Origin: Spirodela intermedia | Taxonomy: Eukaryota > Streptophyta > Magnoliopsida > Alismatales > Araceae | Length of the DNA: 64,000 bases | Assembly: GCA_902729315.2 (NCBI GenBank) | Contig: LR746272.1 | Span: 1,240,001-1,304,000, forward strand | Direction: 5' to 3' | Shown: one piece after another, positions 4,808 to 63,237 of the stretch | Layout: every line of letters begins with the position of its first letter | Position numbering within the stretch: the first letter of the stretch is position 1 | Position numbers and translations under genes: made by a program | Notes under the pieces: model-generated | The model's input: the letters and a program-made list of their open reading frames with translations, nothing else | Database searches by the model: none | Told to the model about the DNA's origin: nothing

Positions 4808-7370
<2,563 letters not shown>

Positions 7371-20338: not shown

Positions 20339-21342
20339 ATGTTTAGCTCCCCCACGCCGTCAATGGCTTCATCCCTCCTCGGCAACACTAACAACGCCAC
20401 CATGTCTTCCTCCTCCGTGCCCCCTCAGCCCTTCGCCTGCCTGGACAATGCATCCAACAACCCCACCAACGGCGGAGGCGGCGTTGGCAGCAAACGGAAG
20501 CGTAGGCCAGCCGGAACTCCAGGTACTTCCTTGCACACGCTTGAATCCCCGAATTGCTGTGAATTCGATTGGTGTTCAGTTGAACTTAAAATAATGACGC
20601 CGATGATCATCTCCTGACCATCTGATGTTGATATCACTAGACCCTGACGCGGAGGTGGTGTCGCTGTCGCCGAAGACGCTGCTGGAGTCGGACCGGTACG
20701 TGTGCGAGATCTGTGGCCAGGGGTTCCAGAGGGACCAGAACCTGCAGATGCACCGGCGGAGGCACAAGGTACCATGGAAGCTGCTTAAGAGGGAGACACC
20801 GGAGGTGAAGAAGAGGGTTTTCGTCTGCCCGGAGCCCAGTTGTCTGCACCATGACCCCTGCCACGCCCTCGGCGATCTAGTCGGCATCAAGAAGCACTAC
20901 CGGCGGAAGCACTCCAACCACAAGCAATGGGTCTGCGGCAAGTGCTCCAAGGCCTACGCCGTCCAGTCTGACTACAAGGCTCACCTCAAGACCTGCGGTA
21001 CCCGCGGCCACTCATGCGACTGCGGCCGCGTCTTCTCCCGGTCCGATCCTCCTTCACGACGTCTCCTCCTTCCTCCGTAAACTTTAACTCCTTTCTTGTA
21101 TATTCTCTCCCATTTCCCATACAAACACGGAATTTAAATCGAATTGAGGTGCCCATAACCGTAATATGATTATAGACCCACCAAAACACAAAGTATCTTA
21201 GATAACACGGTCACATTACCAGTTCTTATTAATTCTTTTTTCTTTGATAATCGTCAGTATTTGGTCTAGGCAAAGTGGTGTGCTTTTTCAAGTATGGAGT
21301 TTCTTTAATATGCGTTTCGCTGATTTTAGTTGTGAAGTTTAT

Positions 21343-25488: not shown

Positions 25489-26914
25489 TATATCTAACAA
25501 TCCACACAAAATGTGATCAATAATAAGATACGAACCATAGGTTTCAAACAAGCTGGTAAGATGAAACACGATTAATATATGCTCCGTTTAAAACATCGAT
25601 AGATAGTGTCCGTGGTCACAACTACTGGCCGATCGATGGTAGATGAGTCACGACTGATAGAATTTGATTCAAATGCCAATACTCAAAGTGTAACATTGCT
25701 CCTCCACAAAAATGGATATCCATGCCTTTTTTGTCTATTAGTCGGTGGTAAGACGAAATAGGAGGGTTATGAGCACTATTTTCTGGCTAAGTATTCTGCC
25801 CTCCATACTCTTTATAGCTCAGACATAATTTGGATTTGGCCATAGTGATCCTTTTGGGTACCAGTTCTTGGCCTCTGTGGTCACATTTCAGATGCATATC
25901 ATGATAAATGGCCTGGTTGCACACCCACCCAGTTGCTCAGTTCTATTGACACAATAAACAACGCGTTGACATTGTGGTAATCGATACAACACCTCCTCCC
26001 ATTTGACTTGATCTTTTAACAGTGAAGAGCTCAAGCTCCCACCATGCGACAACGTTCCATAGAAAAATTGGGTGGGAGAAGAAAAATATTTATACTAAAT
26101 ATTTAATGTCTCGGTTGAGCTAAGCTGAAATTTACACGTAAAAATAAGAAATAATGTCATTTAGATGTTCTCGGAAACGATCATCACTCTCTCCTAACGG
26201 ATTCGGGAGACTGTACCATGTCTTTAGATCGATATGATCAGCTATTCTCAGCTTCAGCATAATATTTTGACCATCCAGCGCTGGTCAACAGTGCATGAAA
26301 AAAAATATTCGCTAAGTTCTGTTTCTTTTCTAGACCTACTGCCACCGAGTCCGATAGCCTCGAATCGACAATCTGAATCGCAAGAAACCCGTGCGAAATC
26401 GAATGGTGATTTCCCCAATTTCTATCAATTCAAAGGCCCTCGAAATGTATACAACTGATTCGATGTCTTCTCTAAGATGGTCAACCGTAATGATCTCTCG
26501 CTCCAAACTGGACCGGGGGAGTGGAGGATCCCCGGAGAGCGTTAATGGGCCCCGTCCATGGGCTATTTTGAGCGTTGAAGACGGCCACCACGAAAACACA
26601 ACGGCCCGGAAAAGAAGGGCCAACTGCCCCGACACAGCACACCCGCCCCACCACAGGACCAAGTAGAACGGAAGAACGCTGCATGTCGCAGCAGCGCGAG
26701 GCGAAGGCTTCAACGAGGAAGAAGACGAGGGCTCAAGAATCGCAGAAAGGCCTCGCCTCCCCCGTTCGCCGGCCGGCCTTCGGGACCGTTGTTCCTCGCT
26801 ATGAGGCCCGATCTTCTCCTCGACCCATGATGCTTCTTCTCGTCCTCCTTCCGGAAATCTAACCCGGGGGATGACGGAGCTCAGGGACGAGGGAGAAGAA
26901 GTAGAAGGAAGAAT

Positions 26915-28039
26915 ATGCCGTCGATGTTAGGGATGAGCACGACGCCGAGGAAGTGGTGGAGGCTGGCGGCGGCGACGGTCAAAGACAAGAGAAGTCTATG
27001 CCTGGCTCGGCTGCGCCCGCCGCCCACGCGCCAGCAGCGGAGCGGCGGGGGGGGGAGTGGCGCCGCCAGGCTGCGCCACCACCCGGAACTGGAGGCGGCG
27101 GTGATCAAGGCGACGAGCCACGACGAGACCCGCATGGACTACAAGAGCGCCGGCAAAGTGTTCGCTTGGGCGCGAACGTCGCCCTCCGTCTTCCTCCGCC
27201 CGCTCATGTGGGCACTCTCCCGGCGCGTGAGGAAGACCCGCAGCTGGGCTGTGGCGCTCAAGTCCCTCATGCTGGCACACGGCGTCCTCCTCTGCTGTCG
27301 GCCCACCGCAGCCGCCGCGGGCCGCCTCCCCTTCGACCTGTCGAGCTTCCACGACCGATCTTCGTGGGGACTCTCCGCCTTCGTCCGCGCCTACTTCAAT
27401 TTCCTCGATCAGCGCTCGATCTTCCTCACCGACGCCCACCGGGAAAAAGGGATGAGGAGGGTGGAGAAAACGCAGGACCTTATGGAGCTGCTGATGCAGG
27501 TGAGGCCTTACGGTGACGAGGGGGCGGGGGCAAGGCTGCTGCTAGAGGCCATGGATTGCGTCGTCGTCGAGATCTTTGAAGTCTACAGCGCCGTCTGTAG
27601 CGGCATCGCCGGCGGCCTCGTCGGCATATTCGGCGCCTGCTCCGCGCCACCGTCTCTACAGCAGCGCAAGGCGGTGGAAGGCGCGATGGGGATCAGGGTG
27701 CTGCGGAGGGCGGCGGAGCAGAGCTCGCAACTGGCGGCCTATTTCGAGTTGTGTAGGCGCATGGGCGTCCTCAACGCGGCGGAACTGCCTCCGGTGGAGA
27801 GAATCCCCGAGGAGGACATCGAGGATCTCGAGATGCTGCTGTGGTTCGAGGCGTCCAGAGGAGAGACCGGTGGCGGAATAGCTGAAGGAATGGAAGAGGA
27901 CGGAAGGAGGAAGAGGTTAGGGACGGTGGTGACGGAGAACTGGGTGGTGTTTGACGACGAACCGGCGCCGAGCGGCGCCGCCCCATGCAGCTGCTGGGCC
28001 GAGCCCCTGCTTCTCGGGCCGCCCCAGAATGGCCTGTAG
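26915..28039 (+). CDS. Putative clathrin assembly protein (ANTH domain, PICALM/AP180-like)
   Basis: A single uninterrupted frame of 374 residues. The ANTH domain is clear: RKWWRLAAATVKDKRS near the N-terminus, HPELEAAVIKATSHDE around residue 55, then KVFAWARTSPSVFLRP, MWALSRRVRKTRSWAVALKS and LMLAHGVLLC. A middle region has FDLSSFHDRSSWGLSAFVRA and YFNFLD. The domain binds PI(4,5)P2 at the plasma membrane or trans-Golgi and recruits clathrin in endocytosis. Length and lack of introns match the short group typified by Arabidopsis At1g25240 and At1g68110, not the long AP180 forms. The C-terminus is rich in acidic residues and proline, and I see no obvious DPF or NPF clathrin or EH-binding repeat. 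High GC in the coding region is like the neighbours. Confidence 0.93.
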   Translation: MPSMLGMSTTPRKWWRLAAATVKDKRSLCLARLRPPPTRQQRSGGGGSGAARLRHHPELEAAVIKATSHDETRMDYKSAGKVFAWARTSPSVFLRPLMWALSRRVRKTRSWAVALKSLMLAHGVLLCCRPTAAAAGRLPFDLSSFHDRSSWGLSAFVRAYFNFLDQRSIFLTDAHREKGMRRVEKTQDLMELLMQVRPYGDEGAGARLLLEAMDCVVVEIFEVYSAVCSGIAGGLVGIFGACSAPPSLQQRKAVEGAMGIRVLRRAAEQSSQLAAYFELCRRMGVLNAAELPPVERIPEEDIEDLEMLLWFEASRGETGGGIAEGMEEDGRRKRLGTVVTENWVVFDDEPAPSGAAPCSCWAEPLLLGPPQNGL

Positions 28040-30065: not shown

Positions 30066-30896
30066 TCATCTGATTATCACAAACTTATTGGTACCATGTT
30101 TGGCCCAGTGAGCCCTAAGGTCGATCGGAGTAGAGAGGTTATACCCTTCACCAACGAGCTTCTCCAAGACCTTCTTAAAAGCGCCATGGCTCATCTTCCG
30201 GCCAGGTATCCTCGTACCCTGCCTCTTGGTGTTCATCGGAAGTGGGTACATCGAGATTTCAGTGGTGCAGCATGCCGATTGCCATCCACCGAGGCCCCAC
30301 CGGTAGCACTGCTGGGGAGTGCCTGTGCATGAACAGACTGGCGTAGGAAGCCTCGAGATATCCAGTTCGACGCCATTGATGACCACGTCCAAGCTCCGTT
30401 TGCCTCCCTTGACGGGCAAAGCAGAAGTACTATTGTTGTTAATGCCATCGCCCCTCTTTGCAGAAGCTTTCTTCGGTTTATCCGGCTTCTGCGCCCTGGT
30501 TGAGTTCATTCCTCGTGACCTTTTTCTTAGTCCATTCACAGCGGGAGCCTTCTCCTCCTCTTTGGACGCCGAGGGATCTGATTGTTTAAGCATTTGAATG
30601 GTGTGAACACTGCCTGCAGATTGGGCATCAAAGGGAACAGCATGCTTGGGGTTCGTAACGTGGAGCATCTTGCTGTTATCACGGCAGGGGTACATCCAGC
30701 CCTCGCGCATGTAGTCCGTGGGAATGGAAGGCTCCTGGACAATGCAATCACGGTGGAGGAATGCCCGCCTGGAGAGGAAAGGTCTCGGTTCTCGCTCTCC
30801 GGCTGACGCTAGCTGGAGACTCAGTCCTCCCTTCCTCTGGGGCTGCTCGAAGTACTCTCCCCAGTTCCTCATTCCCAAGCCGCCATTGCCGTCCAT
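30066..30896 (-). CDS. BPC: BASIC PENTACYSTEINE GAGA-binding transcription factor (class I BPC)
   Basis: One uninterrupted frame of 276 residues. The N-terminus MDGNGGLGMRNWGEYFEQP is the usual class I BPC start. A central basic linker (KKASAKRGDG, VKGGKRSLDVVINGVELDIS) leads to the conserved C-terminal DNA-binding domain: PVCSCTGTPQQCYRWG, GGWQSACCTTEISMYPLP, RIPGRKMSHGAFKKVLEKL, DLRAHWAKHGTNKFVIIR. All five family cysteines are present. BPC proteins bind GA dinucleotide repeats in nuclear promoters and recruit Polycomb-type repressors; in Arabidopsis they regulate homeotic and hormone genes. Length matches Arabidopsis BPC1-3. The leader probably contains an intron: an AG acceptor before gtagcgg at about 31041 and a candidate donor near 31185 (minus strand). 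A GA/CT tract at 31445-31459 lies in its own putative leader or promoter. Confidence 0.96.
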   Translation of the reverse strand: MDGNGGLGMRNWGEYFEQPQRKGGLSLQLASAGEREPRPFLSRRAFLHRDCIVQEPSIPTDYMREGWMYPCRDNSKMLHVTNPKHAVPFDAQSAGSVHTIQMLKQSDPSASKEEEKAPAVNGLRKRSRGMNSTRAQKPDKPKKASAKRGDGINNNSTSALPVKGGKRSLDVVINGVELDISRLPTPVCSCTGTPQQCYRWGLGGWQSACCTTEISMYPLPMNTKRQGTRIPGRKMSHGAFKKVLEKLVGEGYNLSTPIDLRAHWAKHGTNKFVIIR

Positions 30897-44380: not shown

Positions 44381-44881
44381 ATGCATCCAGAGAAGGGCAA
44401 GGAGCAATACAGGGAGTGCATGCGGAACCATGCGGCGACACTCGGCACCTACGCCGTGGACGGCTGCGGCGAGTACACCCCCGACCCTTCCAGCCCCAGA
44501 GGCCTGCAGTGTGCTGCCTGCGGTTGCCATCGGAGCTTCCACCGCAAGTACGTAGCGGTCGGTGAAACGGGCGGTGGTGGGGCAGGCGGCGACAGCTTCA
44601 TGGTGGGGTTCTCGCCGCCGTCGGCCTCCGATGAGAGGAACGACGGCAAGAAGAGGACGCGGACCAAGTTCTCGTCGGAGCAGAAGGAGCAGATGCTGCA
44701 GTTCGCAGAGAAGATTGGTTGGAAGGTGCAGCGGAAGGACGGCGGACAAGACGAGATCGCGAGCTTCTGTCGGGAGATTGGCATTACCAGACAGATGTTC
44801 AAGGTGTGGATACATAACCACAAAGGCTCCTCGACGTCTTCCTCCACGACCACGGGCACCAACACCACCGCCACCGATTAA
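44381..44881 (+). CDS. ZHD: Zinc finger-homeodomain (ZF-HD/ZHD) transcription factor, short type
   Basis: One intronless frame of 166 residues. The ZF-HD dimerisation finger is at residues 9-60: YRECMRNHAATLGTYAVDGC, GEYTPDP, then LQCAACGCHRSFHRKY, with the invariant cysteines and histidines in place. After a glycine-rich linker comes the plant-specific homeodomain (about residues 88-147): KKRTRTKFSSEQKEQMLQFA, WKVQRKDG, and recognition helix ITRQMFKVWIHNHK. ZHD proteins are nuclear and form homo- and heterodimers; in Arabidopsis they act mainly in floral and stress-related programmes. The N-terminal arm before the finger is only eight residues, and the tail is serine/threonine-rich. The start at 44381 is the first ATG in the frame after the GA-rich leader. 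Confidence 0.95.
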   Translation: MHPEKGKEQYRECMRNHAATLGTYAVDGCGEYTPDPSSPRGLQCAACGCHRSFHRKYVAVGETGGGGAGGDSFMVGFSPPSASDERNDGKKRTRTKFSSEQKEQMLQFAEKIGWKVQRKDGGQDEIASFCREIGITRQMFKVWIHNHKGSSTSSSTTTGTNTTATD

Positions 44882-46167: not shown

Positions 46168-46758
46168 ATGGCGGCCATCTCCACTGTCGCCTTCCTCGGC
46201 GCCAGGTGCGCGACTCCCAAGTCGCCGCCGCCCAAGCCGGCGACGAGGCCTCCCCCGCAGGCCCTCTCCATCAGGGACCTCTCCAAGAGCCTGCTCACTC
46301 TTCGCATCCCCGCCGAGCGGCTCTCGGCGCCTGCGGCCCTCGCCGGCGCCGTCTTCGCCACCCTGGGAACAGCCGACGCGGCCCTCGCGGCTCAGCAGAT
46401 CGCTGACATCGCCGAAGGCGACAATCGCGGGCTGGCTCTTCTCCTTCCCCTCATCCCCGCCATCCTTTGGGTCCTCTACAACATCCTCCAACCGGCCCTA
46501 AACCAGATCAACAGGATGACGAGCGAGAAGGGGCTCGTCGTGGGCGTGGGGCTCGGCGGCGGAATGGCGGCCGCGGGGTTCCTCTCCACGCCCTCCGCCG
46601 CGGCGCTGCAGCAGATCGCCGACGTTGCGGAGGCCGCCGCCGGCGGGGACAACCGGGGCCTCGCCCTCCTCTTGCCCCTCGTCCCCGCCATCCTGTGGGT
46701 GCTCTATAACATCCTCCAGCCGGCGCTGAACCAGATCAACCGGATGAGGTCCGGTTGA
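46168..46758 (+). CDS. PSBY: PsbY precursor, photosystem II core protein (two-unit polyprotein)
   Basis: One intronless frame of 196 residues. The N-terminal 60 or so residues are a basic, Ser/Pro/Ala-rich chloroplast transit peptide. Two near-identical mature units follow: QQIADIAEGDNRGLALLLPL with PAILWVLYNILQPALNQINR (about residues 75-113), then QQIADVAEAAAGGDNRGLALLL with the same membrane helix (about 150-194). Each unit is one transmembrane helix. They are separated by a second hydrophobic Ala/Gly-rich segment ending in a thylakoid-type cleavage region (FLSTPSAAA). In plants the nuclear PsbY gene encodes such a polyprotein, cut into two small subunits near cytochrome b559 of photosystem II. 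Light-driven expression is expected but no specific element was identified. Confidence 0.97.
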   Translation: MAAISTVAFLGARCATPKSPPPKPATRPPPQALSIRDLSKSLLTLRIPAERLSAPAALAGAVFATLGTADAALAAQQIADIAEGDNRGLALLLPLIPAILWVLYNILQPALNQINRMTSEKGLVVGVGLGGGMAAAGFLSTPSAAALQQIADVAEAAAGGDNRGLALLLPLVPAILWVLYNILQPALNQINRMRSG

Positions 46759-51986: not shown

Positions 51987-52787
51987 ATGTCGAAGTCGTC
52001 CTGGGGGCTTCTCTTCTCCTCTCTCAAGCCCCTGGCACTTCTCCTAACCCTCTGTTTCCTTTCCCTTCTCCTCCTCTTCTCCCGCTCTGCCACCTCTCCG
52101 CTCACCCCGAAGCATAACCCTAGCGCCGCCCTTTTCGACCTGTCTTTCGACCTACCCCCGTCCTCCTCCGGTGCCGGCGCCGCCGGCGGCATACGGATTC
52201 GTCCTGGCAGCCGGAGTTACAGAGAGTACATTGCCCGGCAGCTGAACAAGACCCTCGACCCCCGTCTTCGCCGCCTCTGGACAACCCGCGACTGGGAGCG
52301 CAAGGTCGCCGTCTTCTCCTCCTTCTTCCTCCGCCATCAGTCGGAGGGGCTCCTCCGCAACTCCTCGCGCGCCCTCTGCGTCGGCGCCCGCACGGGCCAG
52401 GAGGTGGCGGCGCTTCGCCGCGTGGGGGTGACCGACTCCCTAGGCATTGACCTCGTCCCTGCTCCGCCACTGGTGGTCGCCGGCGACTTCCACCGGCAGC
52501 CCTTCCCCAACCAGAGCTTCGACTTCGAGTTCTCCAACGTGTTCGACCACGCCCTGCTGCCGGCGAGGTTCGTGGCGGAGGTGGAGCGGACGCTGCGCCC
52601 AGGCGGGTTCTGCGTCCTCCACGTCGCCCTCCGCCGCCGCGGGGACCGCTACTCGGCGAACGACCTCTTCTCCGTGGAGGCCCTGGTGGCGCTCTTCCAC
52701 GACTCCGACCTGGTGGGAACTCGCAAGGTCGACGGGTTCGGCCTCGACACCGAGGTCGTCATGCGCAAGAGGAAGACGACGACATAG
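51987..52787 (+). CDS. Membrane-anchored SAM-dependent methyltransferase (type 11-like)
   Basis: One intronless frame of 266 residues. Residues 13-32 form a hydrophobic signal anchor (LKPLALLLTLCFLSLLLLFS) after a short basic N-terminus, suggesting a type II Golgi or ER membrane protein. The catalytic domain has a motif I-like LCVGARTGQEV (about residue 130), an acidic GIDLVPAPP, a motif II-like GDFHRQPFPNQSFDFEFSNV, and LRPGGFCVLHVA. This matches plant proteins annotated as S-adenosyl-methionine-dependent methyltransferase superfamily with an N-terminal anchor. The substrate is unknown. GC content is much higher than in the AT-rich island to its left. Confidence 0.85.
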   Translation: MSKSSWGLLFSSLKPLALLLTLCFLSLLLLFSRSATSPLTPKHNPSAALFDLSFDLPPSSSGAGAAGGIRIRPGSRSYREYIARQLNKTLDPRLRRLWTTRDWERKVAVFSSFFLRHQSEGLLRNSSRALCVGARTGQEVAALRRVGVTDSLGIDLVPAPPLVVAGDFHRQPFPNQSFDFEFSNVFDHALLPARFVAEVERTLRPGGFCVLHVALRRRGDRYSANDLFSVEALVALFHDSDLVGTRKVDGFGLDTEVVMRKRKTTT

Positions 52788-55308: not shown

Positions 55309-58084
55309 CTACTCATCACCAATCTTGAAGAAGGTGTATGATAAGATCAAGTTGTTGACACCGTCCATCTTTGGGTCGGTCTCAAACTCGGGATCAATGT
55401 AGAAGAACACCTGCAGATCGCCTCAGGAGATGCCGGTGAATCATCTGGATCAGTTGCAGAATCGAGAGAGAGAGAGAGAGAGAGACGGGCCAACTCCTTA
55501 CAGGCATGTCGATCTGTTCACCGGGGAGAAGACGCTGTTCTTCGAAGCAGAAGCATTGAATCTTGTTGAAGTAAACCGCCGCCTGCAGGGTGTCAAAGGG
55601 ATTGACTATTCTGATACGCTTTAAATAGAAGGAAACCATGAGACAAGGTGCCAACAACTTAACCGAACTGTTTTGCATTGCAAATGAAAAAGAAGTCAAA
55701 GGAGATTGCGGACAAAGAAGGAATCCATGGTGGGTCACCAAATGACTAGATTCTGAAAGCGTTTTTCTCCCCCCAACCTCATCCCAGTTCTTTCGGACTC
55801 GTAGCAGGAAAGATAGTTGTACCATGTCATTTAATTTTAAAAAATATCAGGAAAAAAAAATCTAAGCGTAAAGCTTTGAATGACGTATATAGATCACCGG
55901 ATTTTTCAGCACCAAAGTTTGATTGATCTAAATACCTTTCTCCAAAGAAAAAGTTGTGAAGAAACAATTCCCGTATGATCATATGACTTGGGCCCCTATG
56001 TAGACAAGTTTGGGCCCATATGACCATTCCCGTAGAATAGAAACAGGAGTGGGGGACAAGAAAGTCAACAAATGTTGACCCAGAAGACCTAAGATTCGTA
56101 TACTCCTGGAGCAATTAATGTCAAAATGCATAGTATGCGACAACCACCAATGGCGGAAGAAAAATATTGAAATGTCTGCTGGAGCTAAGTTGATGATTCG
56201 CTTGTACTTTGAATAATGATGAATCGAAGCCAAAGGGGTATCGAACCTTCATGGGTGTGACGTTGTACGTGGAGACGCCAGTTATTGGGGTTGAGCTCCG
56301 GTTTTCAGCAGTATAAAATGCAAGAGCGCTTTCTCCAGGCTTTACTCTCACCTACGAGGAGAGAAGGATCAACCACATGATCACAAAAAAATGATGAACA
56401 AGGACTAGACAGAGTTGCAACGTCCCCCAAAGAACATACCTCCCTTTGCGTCGGGATGAATTTCCATGGCATCCCATCTGCAACGTCGGCATTGAATTGA
56501 ACGATAAGCTCCCTGAAAGTACAACAGGAAATGAACCCATATTTCAACAGAATTGAATCAAACGAAGATCGAACACCAGAAGTCCCTTGATTAATACGAA
56601 GATACATCAAGAAAGATAAAATCAGTGCAACAGTAAAACAATGTTTAATTCACTCCAAAGCAGATGGTTCTTTGCAGCTGTTAGTTGCTGAGGAGAACCT
56701 CAACGTAATTCACAATAAGGAATAAGAGCAAAGGCATCCAAGTGTCTCCTTGATGTTAGTTTTCTCACACCATGACTCAGACCCATCTGAACTGTGATTC
56801 AACAGGCTTCTCAATGGTCAACAGATGTGCCCAAAAAGGACTTCTCATCAATCTGATGTTCGATGCTCAGATATGTGTTGATCTTTCTCTCAGGAAACTA
56901 CTGATGAGAAGGGGGAATAATATCTAGCATTTGCGTGATTTTCCCAGAAGTCGCCCTAAAAGGATCAACTGTTTCATCTCAAAAAATAGCAGAGGTTCGG
57001 TAAACAGCCCCATTTACCAGTGGAATTCCTCATGAACTTTATGGCACAGCCATTTCTCCACTCGATCTTCAAGAAGATCTCACATGATCTGCTCAGTTCT
57101 TCGACTAAATCACTACACGTGACCACAAACACTAATGGAACATGCCTTTATTCACCTAAAAACAATACTCCCTCAGTAATCACAGCTTCTCACTCGGTGG
57201 GCGGTTTCACTTTCGATGGAGACTCCACAGTCAACTGTAGCCTCTCACGCGATATAAGAGTCCAACGCGGCTATGCTTTTCACTTTGACATGCAATCTAT
57301 TGTGTAAAGGCTCCGGGATCATGTCTGATAATAGTACAGGAATCTTTCACCTTCTGTCACCGGCGAAAGCTATATAGGGAGGAACAGTAAGCGCGAATAC
57401 CATGAAAATTCAGGGTAACTGATAAACAGAAACTCGATCTTGAGCGTTTAAAGATATTCAGGGCATTTATGATTCTAAATTCACGAAAACGCAAAGAAGA
57501 AACGATCGTAGTCAATTATCGTTAGCCATTCATTCACCGAAGAAACGGTTGACCCTAAACAGTACCTTGAAGACGTCGCACCATCCTGGGAGTGCCGCGC
57601 AATCTTTTCCTCCACGGTCTGTCATTCCTTGTCAAAAACCATGGGTTCAATCATGTCGCAGATTGAATAAGAAATTAAGAGAACATGGAACATAGACGGA
57701 ACTTCGCCGGCTTACCTCGCGGCGTTGGACGGTGCCACCATATCCGGTGGCCTGGCAGAAGCGTCGGTATAGTGGGACGGCGGCATACGATGCGCCCACC
57801 ATGGCGCAGGCCACGCCGACGAGATATACGAGAGTCTTCTGCGACCTCTTGTCCCTTGCGGCAGCCGCAGAGACGCCGGCGGAAGAAGAGGAGTATTCAC
57901 GCGGAGTGCCGGCACATGGAAACAATCGGGGCCGCGAGGGCGCCGCTGTGGCAGGGGCACATCTGAACAGGAAGGGGAAGGCCGCCCGATCAGACGAAGG
58001 AGAGAATTTAACCTGTGAAAGATGGCGGCAGAGGAGGCGATTTCTCGCAGCGGCTGCTACAGGTCTCAGAAGGGGCGGTGGCAT
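55309..58084 (-). CDS. COX11: Cytochrome c oxidase assembly protein COX11, mitochondrial
   Basis: Six exons on the minus strand join in phase: 58084-57716, 57618-57566, 56512-56440, 56351-56247, 55582-55502 and 55410-55309. They give about 260 residues. An in-frame ATG at 58147 would add 21; [17 protein letters not shown] fits a mitochondrial presequence better. The protein has one membrane helix ([20 protein letters not shown]) followed by [14 protein letters not shown], then the copper-binding immunoglobulin-like domain: [50 protein letters not shown], the Cys-Phe-Cys copper motif in [20 protein letters not shown], and [15 protein letters not shown]11 sits in the inner mitochondrial membrane and delivers copper to the CuB site of cytochrome oxidase subunit 1. 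The catalytic cysteines are all present. Intron 5 carries a CT tract on the sense strand (55465-55484). Confidence 0.96.
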
Positions 58085-58147: not shown

Positions 58148-59024
58148 CCACGGGGTACGGGGTACGGGATTTCAGATCTTCCGGGCTGACCCTGTGAACT
58201 CGTGACTCGCCGAATCGTCGGATAACTCGCTACTCCCGACTCGTTCGTCACCGGGACTGCTTTAGAGTCCGCACCGAACCTCGTGAACCACCCCCCACAC
58301 CCCCTTAACATATTCTTTTAATTCGATTTTCCTAGTAATTATCAAGTAAATTAGCCATTTTATGGATATTAATTAATTAATTTTATAATTTAAATATACC
58401 CCAAGTCCGAAGCCCAGCCCTCTCTCTCTCTCTGAGAGTTAAAAGGGGATGAAAAATGGGACAAACACGGTCCATTAAAGTTAGTTTGGGCTCGGGGTGA
58501 ATGGGGAAGCGCGGGCCGGCCCGTTGATACCTTCACTGATTCTTTATAGAGATCGGAGAAAAACTGAGAAATAGAAAAAATAGAAAAATAAATATGTTTG
58601 TGTAAATATCAAGCTCATGTAATTAGATATCCTTTCTGGTAGAATCTCTGGAAATATCTAGCAATCTTCAGAGGCAGATTTCGACGGACGCCTCGAAGTT
58701 CTACGCATGCGATCCTCTCTCCGTCGTAAACAGACGAAGAAGTGACGTGAATTCAGAGAAGAAGTGACGGGAGCCTCTGGTTGATTCGTCGTTGTCAGAG
58801 ATGAAGAAGAAGAAGAAGAACAGGCAGGCGACGATCACGTTAGATTCCTGAAACAAGACGAACAGCAGAGAAGAACCGAACGAAAGAGGGCCTTCGAAGA
58901 TGCGATATACGACATTTTTTTCAACAACCGAAAGAAAGAATGATTCGAGAACATCGTCTGACGATGTCGATGCCGATTCGGATCTGGTCGGCTTCTCACT
59001 GCCATCTTCGTCGACGCCGCGCAA
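58148..59024. other. COX11 5' flank and downstream flank of tandem gene 1
   Basis: The left part is the COX11 promoter region. The right part (58640-59024) is presumably the 3' untranslated region of the first tandem gene; the words aaagaaagaatgattc (58931-58946) recur after the fourth copy. A minus-strand open frame at 58701-59024 has no family resemblance. Confidence 0.5.
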
Positions 59025-59294
59025 TCATTGCTGAGGAGCGGCAGCAACGGCACGGCCCTGGACAGGACAGGGGATCTGAGCCGCCCGTCGACTGCGACAG
59101 TACCTGTAGATCAAGAAGGCGTTGGAAGCAACCAACGCCAAAGATATGGCGAAAATGATGGCCGCTTTCAATTCCCACGGGTGAATTGGCTGAAGAATGA
59201 TGAGTATATCAACGACCACGAGAGTGACTGTCATCGGAGTGAACACGATGAGGTCGAACCCCTCCGAAATTCCTCTCATATCTGGCTGATCCAT
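59025..59294 (-). CDS. Tandem small two-pass membrane protein, copy 1 (unknown family)
   Basis: An 89-residue frame. The N-terminus MDQPDMRGISEGFDLIVFTP leads into a first hydrophobic helix (about residues 15-37) with an Asp at position 29 inside it. After a short IHPWELKAA turn comes a second helix (43-63), then YRYCRSRRAAQ and a Pro/Ala/Gln-rich tail ending PQQ. The basic stretch after helix 2 predicts that both ends face the cytosol (inference). An in-frame ATG at 59318 would add GGRLSRR-type residues; similar codons precede copy 4, so either start is possible. A TATA-like sequence lies on the minus strand at about 59567-59558. I recognise no family. Confidence 0.7.
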   Translation of the reverse strand: MDQPDMRGISEGFDLIVFTPMTVTLVVVDILIILQPIHPWELKAAIIFAISLALVASNAFLIYRYCRSRRAAQIPCPVQGRAVAAAPQQ

Positions 59295-60020
59295 CCTTCT
59301 GCTCAGTCTGCCTCCCACACTCCGCGCATCAGCGACAGAAAAAAAAGAAGCAACAACGCGGTGAAAAGATCATACGACGTACCGTTCTTGGAGCGCTGCT
59401 CCCTCGTTCAACCTCCTTTCTCCCTTCACTGCCGCCAAGAGCCCTCTTCCACCTCCTTTCGACCCTCACTTCTCTGTCCCCGTCCTCCCTCTTCTATCTC
59501 TTCTCCTCTGTTGTTTCTGCTGAAGTGTGCTTCCACAGTTCCCAGAGACATGCACATCTATAAATAGGCTAGTATTAGTGGGCCCTCTTGTATTAGGGGG
59601 CCTCTAATCAAATCGGAAGCCTATTATTAATATTTATTATATTGAAATTAGCCGTGCTTCATTAAAATTTAAACCAAAAAGTATAAATATATAAACGAAC
59701 TAAAGATAGTGATAAGTCAAATCCCCCTCTTAAAATATGATCAATTTTCTTCTTATTGAGATCCTACATAAATAATCTAGTGTTCCAATAACTCGTCTAT
59801 TTTTCTCTCTCTCCCTCTCTCTCTCTCTCTCCATCTCTCTCTCACTCACTGTCCCACACACACAGTTGACTGAAAAAAGTTCGTCTGCTGCAACAACCTA
59901 AAGAATGGATGGATTAATGTTTCAAGAATGAACACCCTCCCTCTCTCTCTAGAAATTGAAATAGAAAGTCGTTTGGTGCAATAATGCAAGGAACAGAAAC
60001 ACGTAATGCTTCCAGAATGG

Positions 60021-60067
<47 letters not shown>

Positions 60068-60185
60068 GCTAGCTCGCTCAAGAAGTCTACTGACCAACCT
60101 TGGTACTTTCACATTATAAACGTGCGACGAAAGAAATCTTCAAGAACGGCAGGAGCGGCAGCAGACCCCCCTTGTATGATCGTCC
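59295..60185. other. Spacer between tandem copies 1 and 2
   Basis: Contains the leader and promoter of copy 1, AT-rich DNA at 59580-59790, CT tracts at 59800-59840 and 60023-60062, and the 3' flank of copy 2. No further gene. Confidence 0.55.
60023..60063. repeat. (CT)20 microsatellite in the tandem-array spacer
   Basis: About 40 bases of alternating CT, preceded by aatggag. Located 3' of copy 2 in its reading direction. Confidence 0.95.
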
Positions 60186-60509
60186 TCAAGCAGCAGCAGC
60201 GGCAACAGGAGCGGCAGCAGCAGCGGCAACAGGAACGACATCGGAAGCGGCGGCAGGAGTGGGAACGAGGACTTGAGCAGGCCATCTGCAGCGCCAGATT
60301 CTGTAGAGGATGTAGCAGAAGGCGGCGAACAGCGCCGCCGACACGGCGGCGATGAGGGCCACCTTGAGAGCCAGCGGCTGAATTATCGCGAATACGAAGG
60401 CGGTTTCCACAACCACGAGAATCGCCACCAGTATCGGAACCCACAACAGTGGATCCAACTCCCGTGGCTCCTCTCGCATCCTGGCCCCATAGATCCTTCT
60501 AACATGCAT
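60186..60509 (-). CDS. Tandem small two-pass membrane protein, copy 2 (unknown family)
   Basis: A frame of 107 residues from the ATG at 60509. A TATATATA box at 60598-60606 lies inside the upstream continuation of this frame, which argues against longer starts and places transcription start around 60570. N-terminus MHVRRIYGARMREEPRELDP, then a hydrophobic helix (LLWVPILVAILVVVETAFVF) with Glu at residue 35 where copies 1 and 3 have Asp. A second helix follows IIQPLALKVALIAAVSAALF, then YRIWRCRWPAQV and a tail of alanine/valine repeats. It is the most diverged copy and the only one with a long poly-Ala tail. Same layout and strand as its neighbours. Confidence 0.68.
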   Translation of the reverse strand: MHVRRIYGARMREEPRELDPLLWVPILVAILVVVETAFVFAIIQPLALKVALIAAVSAALFAAFCYILYRIWRCRWPAQVLVPTPAAASDVVPVAAAAAAPVAAAAA

Positions 60510-61274
60510 CTCCCCCACCTCTGCCTTCCAAGCTTCTTTCTCTCTCTCCCCTTTGGCCTTTCTCTTGTTGCAACGGCGGATGGATTGAAGGAGCGAGTAT
60601 ATATAGAGAATGGGGTCCATTGGCGTCTGATCCAGAGCCTCTTGAGATATTTCTCGGATCATGCAATGGAAATCGTTGCCCTGACTCACCTATGGATCGG
60701 TGCGACCCGACTTCCACGTTTGATGAAGCAGTATGTATTTAAATTAATTTTATATTGAAAGTACACAATAGTGCATGGCTGTAATGTAATCTTCAACGCT
60801 TCTCGGAAAAGAGAAAAAAAATGACAAAAAATGAGGAATCTAACCGCGTAGAAATATATTTGTCGTATTTTAGTCAGATTAAATATTTTGAAGATAGGTC
60901 AATTTTAAATAATTATAATTTAAATATTATGGTTTTATGCAATTAATCAATAAAATTGGAATCGGTTCATAGTCCCGAAGATTGAATGTGACAACGAAAT
61001 CCCGCAAGAGCGGAAGAGTTAATCAGCGAAGAATGTAAATCTCTCTCTCTCTCTCTAGGAAATCCCAGCAGGACATACGAAAGAGTTCCTGCCTTCCTTT
61101 ATTTTCCAAGATGAGAGAGAAAGAACGCGACAAGAACGCAGCTCTCTCTCTCTCTCTCTGTCTCTGTCTCTCTCGCTCTCTTAAGAACGAAAAGAAAAGA
61201 ATAAAGGAAGAATACAAAGAATCTAAGGATAGAAGAGCGGGCTGTGATTTGCTTCGCTTAACATCGCCATGCCG
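60510..61274. other. Spacer between tandem copies 2 and 3
   Basis: Holds the GA-rich leader (CT on the + strand at 60535-60550) and TATA box of copy 2, an AT-rich stretch at 60730-60970, CT tracts at 61040-61057 and 61141-61174, and the 3' flank of copy 3. Confidence 0.55.
60598..60606 (-). promoter_or_regulatory. TATA box of tandem copy 2
   Basis: ctatatata on the minus strand, about 90 bases upstream of the chosen ATG. Spacing fits a short leader. Confidence 0.6.
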
Positions 61275-61550
61275 TCATGGTTGATCAGGAGCAGGGGGCA
61301 CGGCAGGGCTAGAGGAGGAGCTGGAGAACTGAACCGCCCTCTGCCTGCGGCAGTATCTGTACACCAAGACGGAGATGAAGGTGAGGAGCACGGCAGATAC
61401 GCCGGCGATGAGGCCCCATTTGAGTCCCCGAGGAGGGATGTCCTGAAACACGAGGAAGACGTCGATGGCCAACAGAATCACCGCCGCAAAGGGAGAGAAC
61501 ACGACCAGATCGAACGCCTCCGGATGCTGTTCTATCCTCACTGTTTCCAT
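61275..61550 (-). CDS. Tandem small two-pass membrane protein, copy 3 (unknown family)
   Basis: A 91-residue frame starting at the ATG at 61550, preceded by a (GA)n leader on the sense strand and a TATA-like catatatc at 61635-61628. N-terminus METVRIEQHPEAFDLVVFSP, helix 1 with Asp30 inside (AVILLAIDVFLVFQ), DIPPRGLKW turn, helix 2 (GLIAGVSAVLLTFISVLV), then YRYCRRQRAVQ. The tail is a serine run followed by Pro/Ala and ends PDQP. FDLVVFSP matches FDLIVFTP of copy 1, and YRYCR is identical in both. No known domain is recognised. Confidence 0.75.
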   Translation of the reverse strand: METVRIEQHPEAFDLVVFSPFAAVILLAIDVFLVFQDIPPRGLKWGLIAGVSAVLLTFISVLVYRYCRRQRAVQFSSSSSSPAVPPAPDQP

Positions 61551-62293
61551 CCTCTCTCCCTCTCTCTCTCTCTCTCTCTGGGTGTCGCTGGGAGCGGGGT
61601 GACCACTTGATATTGAATGGGATGACGATATATGTAGCTGCCGATGGGAATCTGTTGTGATTATCTTGCTAGGATCAAGTTGGAAGAATCAACGGTCAAG
61701 ATTATAGTCGTTCATGGAGCTGCCACCACCGCGATCGGAGCCATTCATACCCGACTTGGCTCCAAAGTTTGTTAAAAAATGCATGATTTCCAAGCCCATT
61801 TGAAACATACGTACGAATAATTTTAGATTAAAATTATGAAATAATTCGTGATTCCTTCAGAAATTACTGAAAGGGGATAAAACAAAGAGGAAAACAATCA
61901 TTTAAATTTCATAAAAATTTAATAATCCTAATTTTTATTCAAATTAGCTTAATTTTTATGGAAAATCTCCGAAGTATATCACATGTACGTCGCCGTCTCC
62001 TCGCTCTCTGTCGATCGATCAGCGGAAGAAGAAGAAACGGAAAACAGAAGGAACAAGAAGCAGAAACCCTTGTTCCTTGTTCAGGGATGACAGCAGAAAG
62101 CCGAAGATTGCATCGGAATCCCTCGATCAAAATGAACAGCGGAGAAGAGAACGCAGTTGACGCGTTTTATTCCCCGAATGGAGAGCGAGAACGCTTCAAG
62201 ATTTCGCCCTCCGGAAACATTCTGCTTACAAGAATGAAAAGAAAGAATGATTCAAGAGCCCGCCCCACCGCCTCCTCCTCCGCCGCCGCGCCG
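61551..62293. other. Spacer between tandem copies 3 and 4
   Basis: Contains the GA leader (61555-61580 as CT on the + strand) and TATA region of copy 3, an AT-rich stretch at 61800-61950, and the 3' flank of copy 4. The copy 4 flank includes aaagaaagaatgattc at 62238-62253, identical to the sequence after copy 1. Confidence 0.6.
61628..61635 (-). promoter_or_regulatory. TATA-like element of tandem copy 3
   Basis: catatatc on the minus strand about 80 bases before the ATG, at a spacing similar to copy 2. Confidence 0.45.
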
Positions 62294-62563
62294 TCATTGC
62301 TGAGCAATAGGAGGAGAGGCAACGGGATGGACGCGGCTGTCGGAAGGGCTGGGGCCCCGCGCTGTCCTTCGATTACGCCAGTGTTTGTAGGCCATGAAGG
62401 AGACGATGAGGAGCAGTGCTGCAGATGCCCCGGCGATGAAGGCCGCTTTCACCTCCCATGGTTGAATGTCCGCGGCTATGAACAAGACGACGGCGGCCAA
62501 GAGAAACACAGCCGTCGGAGCGAGTACAACAATATCGAACGTTGGAAAGGGTGGTTGGTTCAT
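62294..62563 (-). CDS. Tandem small two-pass membrane protein, copy 4 (unknown family)
   Basis: An 89-residue frame, the same length as copy 1. N-terminus MNQPPFPTFDIVVLAP (copy 1: MDQP...FDLIVFTP), helix 1 (TAVFLLAAVVLFIAA), the turn DIQPWEVKAA matching copy 1 HPWELKAA, helix 2 (FIAGASAALLLIVSFMAY), then KHWRNRRTARG and a Ser/Pro-rich tail ending IAQQ. Unlike copies 1-3 it has no acidic residue in the middle of helix 1. The first ATG after the TATA box (62696-62690) is probably 62611, in frame, which would add a hydrophobic MCFLLLPVVG start. The QQ-stop context and downstream bases are shared with copy 1. Confidence 0.72.
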   Translation of the reverse strand: MNQPPFPTFDIVVLAPTAVFLLAAVVLFIAADIQPWEVKAAFIAGASAALLLIVSFMAYKHWRNRRTARGPSPSDSRVHPVASPPIAQQ

Positions 62564-62689
62564 CCTTCCGCTGATTCTGTCCCCAACAACTGGGAGAAGA
62601 AGGAAGCACAAAGGACTCCCCCTCTCTCTCTCTCGAACTGTGACTCGGGGTGGAGGGAACGAACCACAGTTTCAAATGGCATGGAATGA

Positions 62690-62696
62690 ATATATA
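62690..62696 (-). promoter_or_regulatory. TATA box of tandem copy 4
   Basis: ctatatatt on the minus strand, about 130 bases upstream of the MNQPP start and 80 upstream of the in-frame ATG at 62611. A GA stretch (CT on + at 62622-62635) lies in the presumed leader. Confidence 0.6.
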
Positions 62697-62850
62697 GGCG
62701 GTGCCCCTGGACCGAGCCGAGCCGGGGTTTATAGAATTCCGGCCCGGAGACCACTCTGAGCCCGGTTCGGTCAGACCGCCACGTCACAGGCAGTCATAGG
62801 CGGGGGAGAAATACGATCAGCGTCGTCCGTGGATTGGTTAACGCTCCCCT

Positions 62851-62941: not shown

Positions 62942-63237
62942 ATGCGTGAGCCGGCCTTCCTCGTTGAGCCACGGAGGCGGCAATTGCTGGACTTTCTGAT
63001 GAATGCCTGTGTGGTAAGTCGACTGAGAAGTATTGTGAGCTCTAGCTCTCTCTCTTTCGCGGCTGCTCGCCGTAGATTTCCCCCTAGGCTTTTCCCCCAG
63101 CCTTCTCATATTTTTTTCCGATATTCCCGTCTATTTCTCCTTTTAATTTGAGGGAAAAAGTGGCTCGGCGTCGCTCCGATCGTGAAGTACACGGCGCTGT
63201 CCTTTTTCGCGGATAGATTCCTCCCATGTCTGCCCAG
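62942..63237 (+). CDS. 5' exons of a probable cyclin J18-like gene (cut by the window end)
   Basis: Exon 1 runs from the ATG at 62942 (MREPAFLVEPRRRQLLDFLM then NACV) to a GTAAG donor at about 63014-63016. Exon 2 reads WLGVAPIVKYTALSFFADRF followed by LPCLPR, ending at a GT donor at 63238. The acceptor is either after ag 63152, which breaks the frame, or after ag 63160, which keeps it, so 63161 is preferred. RRR-LLDFL and PIVKYTALSLF-DRF are the opening of plant CYCJ18 proteins, small cyclin-box proteins of unclear role in cell division. The cyclin box itself lies beyond the window. Identification is from memory of a short stretch, hence moderate confidence. Confidence 0.55.

Follow-up and report, generated by a model that had tools for sequence, protein, structure and literature searches.

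An old tandem family of four small genes for probable membrane hairpins in Spirodela intermedia, without a Pfam-A match above cut-off

The Pmp3/RCI2 family (PF01679) comprises small two-helix membrane proteins of plants and fungi, and uncharacterised tandem families are common in plant genomes. In signal-anchored proteins of the OEP7 type, moderate hydrophobicity of the membrane segment together with a positively charged stretch behind it constitutes a targeting signal that avoids the endoplasmic reticulum (ER), with a hydrophobicity limit of 0.4 (PMC4010795); clone 7747 of Spirodela intermedia and tandem expansions in Lemna minuta are covered by PMC8825320. Here we describe a tandem array of four genes in a window of 64,000 nucleotides of Spirodela intermedia DNA (assembly GCA_902729315.2, contig LR746272.1, positions 1,240,001 to 1,304,000 of the forward strand), an array on which a limited literature search found nothing. 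We find it to be a real family, old and local, whose members are probable membrane hairpins and have no Pfam-A match above cut-off.

The four copies (g1 to g4) are copy 1 at 59025..59294 (89 amino acids), copy 2 at 60186..60509 (107 amino acids from the ATG at 60509, or 97 from the ATG at 60479), copy 3 at 61275..61550 (91 amino acids) and copy 4 at 62294..62563 (89 amino acids). All are on the minus strand, at regular spacing and with no other recognised gene in between; the frames, lengths and stop positions given in a previous reading of the window from its letters alone (hereafter the sequence-only reading) were confirmed, with stop spacings of 1161, 1089 and 1019 bases. The copies share one plan: a conserved Asp just ahead of helix 1, a short I-x-P-xx-(L/V)K turn, helix 2, an Arg-rich patch (YRYCRSRRA in copy 1) and a Pro/Ala/Ser-rich tail, which ends in PQQ in copy 1 and is long and composed of Ala, Pro and Val in copy 2. 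Two motifs had been proposed in stricter form, and each holds in three of the four copies: FDxxVF/L-x-P at the N-terminus, replaced by LDPLLWVP in copy 2, and I-x-P-xx-LK in the turn, where copy 4 has VK in place of LK. Four plus-strand open reading frames (ORFs), of 243, 123, 113 and 97 amino acids, overlap the array; a Pfam scan gave no match for them up to E 0.1, which does not by itself prove them non-coding, and the longest, at 61958-62689, runs antisense across copy 4.

To assess homology among the copies, we compared global alignment scores of the protein cores with those of 2000 shuffles in which residues were shuffled separately within five segments of our own definition (N-terminus, helix 1, turn, helix 2 and basic patch), so that the shared plan was retained. 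All six pairs beat every one of the 2000 segment-wise shuffles, with z of 5.6-9.3. Identity to copy 3 is 29-42% for full-length proteins and 33-42% for the core, and each of two alignments contains 12 invariant columns, including D14, P20, P40, K44, S52, Y64 and R68 in copy 3 numbering. We conclude that the four frames are homologous beyond common composition and a common plan. A hydropathy screen of the 131 ORFs of 60-160 amino acids in the window (counted from the first Met, in six frames) returned exactly four with two separate 19-residue segments of mean Kyte-Doolittle hydropathy above 1.8, and these four are copies 1-4. The earlier proposal is supported in so far as it describes small membrane proteins of two helices, encoded in tandem, in which helix 2 is followed by a basic patch.

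The same proposal held the family to be recently expanded, and this part is not supported. Maximum-likelihood (ML) estimates of synonymous divergence (dS) between copies are 0.94-2.09 (0.65-1.22 by the NG86 method), and the internal branch is 0-0.11 across three topologies and both column sets, so that the tree is star-like; the identities to copy 3 point the same way. Either the duplications are old and followed one another closely, or the signal is saturated. The dS values suggest duplications that predate the genus, in which case relatives would be expected in other duckweeds or aroids. There is about an even chance that the array is no novelty of Spirodela and that its genes are the local members of a more widespread plant family of short membrane proteins, which lies outside Pfam-A and may carry annotations such as 'hypothetical' or 'transmembrane protein'. 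Against a wider family stands the Pfam scan of the four copies, which gave no match above cut-off.

Below the cut-off, copy 4 alone gave a match to DUF2157 (PF09925), at E 4.2e-4 and with 20.5 bits where the cut-off is 32.4; the likeness is an alignment over residues 8-67, in only one copy of the four, and it reads as a generic hydrophobic match. A profile search of solved structures gave a best E of 0.38 (ExbD), which is not significant, and a Foldseek search of the PDB produced 48 matches with E up to 10, none of them with E ≤ 0.001; the best of these, at E 1.9, was to a chain of the yeast oligosaccharyltransferase complex and was not used. The statement that the copies belong to no known family is upheld by these results, in that none is above the Pfam cut-off and no solved structure is matched significantly by profile or by fold. 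When the species' own 136.5 Mb genome was searched with the protein of each copy in turn and with one blended query, no place beyond the array came up at E ≤ 0.001, in a search whose first stage passed only 4-5 candidates and which a very distant paralogue could escape; the single extra match, at an E value above that threshold, was of copy 4 to a 687-amino-acid frame on C11 (E 0.1). Two further candidates were set aside: a match of copy 2 plus leader DNA on C8 (44 bases, E 2.3e-7), which falls in the GC-rich triplet-repeat tail region and was taken as a repeat, not a relative, and a weak match of copy 2 within the window at 25733-25852 (E 0.005, with the composition correction switched off), where the matched stretch is interrupted by stops and shows no array-like plan. 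A scan of prokaryote genomes with copy 3 gave 247 pattern matches and 0 relatives. We put forward as a tentative possibility that the array is an undescribed family of membrane-hairpin microproteins with an origin in the duckweed lineage or its aroid ancestors, that it was duplicated in place beside the neighbouring COX11 gene, and that its four diverged paralogues have long been retained, perhaps with a division of labour between organs or conditions.

The hydropathy of all four copies and an AlphaFold2 model of copy 3 (m6e95a2ecdc99, made from the four-row alignment) agree on two helices with a short turn. In the model, the helices span residues 11-35 and 41-77, block pLDDT is 80-86 over residues 21-70, and confidence is low in the Pro/Ala/Ser-rich tail. 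Across the four copies the hydrophobic core of helix 1 begins at residue 11-24, helix 2 starts from about residue 41, and 27-39 residues separate the end of its hydrophobic core from the stop. Net charge past helix 2 is +5, +2, +3 and +5 in copies 1-4, compared with 0, +1, +1 and -1 in the turn. Under the positive-inside rule this difference would place the C-terminus in the cytosol and, with two helices, the N-terminus as well; a membrane hairpin is probable, and both of its ends may be cytosolic.

According to the explanation that we propose, and that we hold to be about evenly balanced between true and false, the array is an old tandem family of four separate, apparently single-exon genes encoding membrane hairpins of 89-107 amino acids that have both ends in the cytosol and serve as small accessory or adaptor proteins. 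Helix 1, being near the N-terminus, would leave little room for a presequence. Helix 2, with its core ending so close to the stop, would emerge from the ribosome only when translation terminates or later; given the length of the ribosome tunnel, most of the insertion would then take place after translation. The N- and C-termini would end up in the cytosol, the basic patch and the tail would face it, and the most likely role of the copies would be that of small accessory or adaptor proteins embedded in the membrane. Computation shows the homology, the open frames, a marginal purifying selection and the two hydrophobic segments; topology, insertion route and accessory role are inferred.

Compatible with the hairpin explanation, and rather unlikely, is the hypothesis that the proteins reside in the outer envelope of the chloroplast or mitochondrion by virtue of an OEP7-like, ER-avoiding signal. 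The number of Lys and Arg residues behind helix 2, counted to the C-terminus, is 5, 3, 4 and 6 in copies 1-4, as this hypothesis would have it. Octanol-scale means, calculated with scale values entered by hand, are 0.44, 0.38, 0.40 and 0.56 for helix 1 and 0.39, 0.37, 0.44 and 0.26 for helix 2, that is, 0.38-0.56 and 0.26-0.44, around the limit of 0.4 given in PMC4010795. The COX11 gene adjoins the array, which is a matter of proximity only. However, the rule is described for signal-anchored proteins with a single segment, unlike the array proteins, and the hydrophobicity values straddle the limit and vary between copies.

Flanking DNA was compared, with simple repeats masked, in twelve comparisons against 400 first-order random sequences, for which p values are uncorrected. 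The 3' flanks of copy 1 (58826..58950, minus strand) and copy 4 (62099..62257, minus strand) are homologous, with a score of 56 against a null mean of 24.2 (standard deviation 4.2) and 0 of the 400 random sequences as good. The 5' flanks of copy 3 (61588..61647, minus strand, around a TATA-like element) and copy 4 (62638..62710, minus strand, with TATATA at -133) are similar across the TATA region, and so are those of copies 1 and 3 (p 0.003 for each, before correction for six pairs); p was 0.020 to 0.680 in the remaining nine of the twelve comparisons. The idea that the duplication unit extended beyond the ORF to promoter and leader is borne out for some pairs (3' of copies 1 and 4; 5' of copies 3 and 4 and of copies 1 and 3) and not in most comparisons. 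On this evidence the duplicated unit did include flanking DNA, most of which has since diverged past recognition.

The sequence-only reading had also assigned a TATA-like element to every copy and a GA-rich leader to three. A strict TATATA or TATAAA within 200 nucleotides (nt) of the start is present in two of the four, copy 2 (at -111 relative to the position, discussed below, that aligns with the start codons of its sisters) and copy 4 (at -133 and -170), and copies 1 and 3 have only looser elements; in the 450 nt scanned, a strict element occurs solely at -399 in copy 1 and nowhere in copy 3. The (GA)n part of the leader is a genome-wide simple repeat. The 200 bases before copy 3 have at least 22 matches in the genome besides itself, some of them overlapping, all in the last 46 bases, which are the GA tract, and (AG)n repeats are reported to occupy about 37,000 loci and to make up 1% of the assembly in Spirodela intermedia (PMC7645714). 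We conclude that, since the matches fall in the GA tract and (AG)n is abundant genome-wide, the GA-rich leaders are largely genome background and are weak evidence of shared control. Past the stop, AATAAA lies at 123 nt in copy 4 and at 172 nt in copy 3; within 400 nt, none of the five signals sought follows copy 1, and copy 2 is followed by no more than a variant, at 385 nt.

All four frames are open over 75 codons despite dS near 1-2, a single continuous frame aligns through the core of all copies without a frame shift, and none of the four is broken in the Spirodela intermedia genome. The second codon position is the most conserved in five of the six pairs, the exception being copies 2 and 4. 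In a neutral simulation (a star tree from one copy, the copies' base composition, substitutions only, 3000 runs), the probability that all four frames remain open ranged from 0.0017 to 0.027, the lower value with 0.5 and the higher with 0.2 substitutions per site on each branch. Codon ML with a four-taxon model gave omega of 0.60-0.62 on the core, defined here as the columns from FD on, and rejected omega = 1 with p of 0.026-0.033. The Ka/Ks comparison among copies that had been suggested as a check gives omega below 1 (0.60-0.68 over both column sets), and its rejection of 1 is marginal.

Copy 2 departs from its sisters at the start of translation. The place aligned to the start ATG of copies 1, 3 and 4 reads ATC in copy 2 (AGAAGG-ATC), and the frame stays open upstream of it. 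Copy 2 has three in-frame ATGs, at 60662 (158 amino acids), 60509 (107 amino acids) and 60479 (97 amino acids), the last of which aligns with Met6 of copy 1, five codons downstream of the ATC. The start is preceded by AGG in copies 1, 3 and 4, giving A at -3, and A stands at -3 of the third ATG of copy 2 likewise. With ATC at its ancestral start place, copy 2 has had its translation start moved, either upstream, into the former leader, or five codons downstream. Its branch is the longest of the four (1.48-1.55, ML), and for this reason and for its Ala-rich tail copy 2 is the best candidate for decay or a new role.

Several results count against the explanation that we propose. Over the full set of 75 columns, which includes an uncertain first 12, omega is 0.67-0.68 and omega = 1 is not rejected (p 0.058-0.062); pairwise codon ML rejects omega = 1 at 0.05 in two of the six pairs and fails to do so in four; NG86 dN/dS is near 1 for copies 2 and 3 (0.64/0.65); and copy 2, with its start codon lost and the longest branch, may be decaying. 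Confidence in the AlphaFold2 model is moderate (mean pLDDT 70.9, pTM 0.47), at 66 in block 11-20 and 60 in block 71-80; net charge before helix 1 is -3, +1, -3 and -1, such that the positive-inside rule supports a cytosolic C-terminus only; a helical-face pattern of conservation was sought and not found (p 0.26-0.68); and homology of flanks was not detected at p < 0.05 in seven of the twelve comparisons.

The hypothesis that the frames have no function, being decaying or chance ORFs held open by high GC, draws on the omega near 0.6-0.7 with its marginal p, on the start shift of copy 2 and on the G+C of the copies, 0.53-0.61, which makes stops rarer; the neutral simulation, run at the copies' own base composition, and the strong amino-acid similarity in all six pairs argue against it, and we consider it improbable. 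That the copies are terminal or inner exons of longer genes, as a genome search that reads frames without introns would allow, is more improbable still: every copy starts at a separate ATG in fair context and ends at a separate stop, and copies 3 and 4 (two of the four) have AATAAA past the stop. Taken together, the evidence favours real genes under modest constraint, short of proof: constraint on the copies is modestly supported, and the four frames are likely a coding family. If the array is indeed an old, retained local family of membrane microproteins, it would provide a compact test case for the function of such proteins, in genes short enough to escape annotation; a specialist would not find such a small, uncharacterised family surprising in itself.

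Downstream of the array, and adjoining it, lies the COX11 gene (cytochrome c oxidase assembly; 55324-58084, minus strand). Its first exon, at 57647-58084, carries a PF04442 fragment (E 3.6e-4, under cut-off), more of the PF04442 domain lies at 55324-56357, and the only three PF04442 matches returned by the genome search are at this locus. Upstream of copy 4 and divergent from it, a likely first exon of a plus-strand gene lies at 62942-63013; this gene may be cyclin-J18-like, and Pfam gave no match. Elsewhere in the window are a PsbY precursor with two PsbY repeats at 46168-46758 (PF06298, 99.9 bits) and, in this (AG)n-rich genome, a BBR/BPC-type GAGA-binding protein gene at 30066-30896 (PF06217, 276.8 bits), along with Pfam matches to ZF-HD (44381-44881), ANTH (26915-28039), a BIRD-IDD zinc finger (20625-21080), PHD/At1g33420-like (6024-7370) and a methyltransferase (51987-52787).

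Like OEP7-type proteins (PMC4010795), the array proteins have a segment of moderate hydrophobicity, with at least three basic residues behind it in every copy. They differ in having two membrane segments, where OEP7-type proteins have one, and the hydrophobicity limit of 0.4 holds for some array helices only. The Pfam scan, taken to E 5 with HMMER filters that discard most matches above about 0.1, did not list PF01679 for any of the four copies. The array proteins resemble those of the Pmp3/RCI2 family in being very small, with two membrane helices and without a long soluble domain; unlike the Pmp3/RCI2 proteins, they carry an Arg-rich patch and a Pro/Ala/Ser-rich tail.

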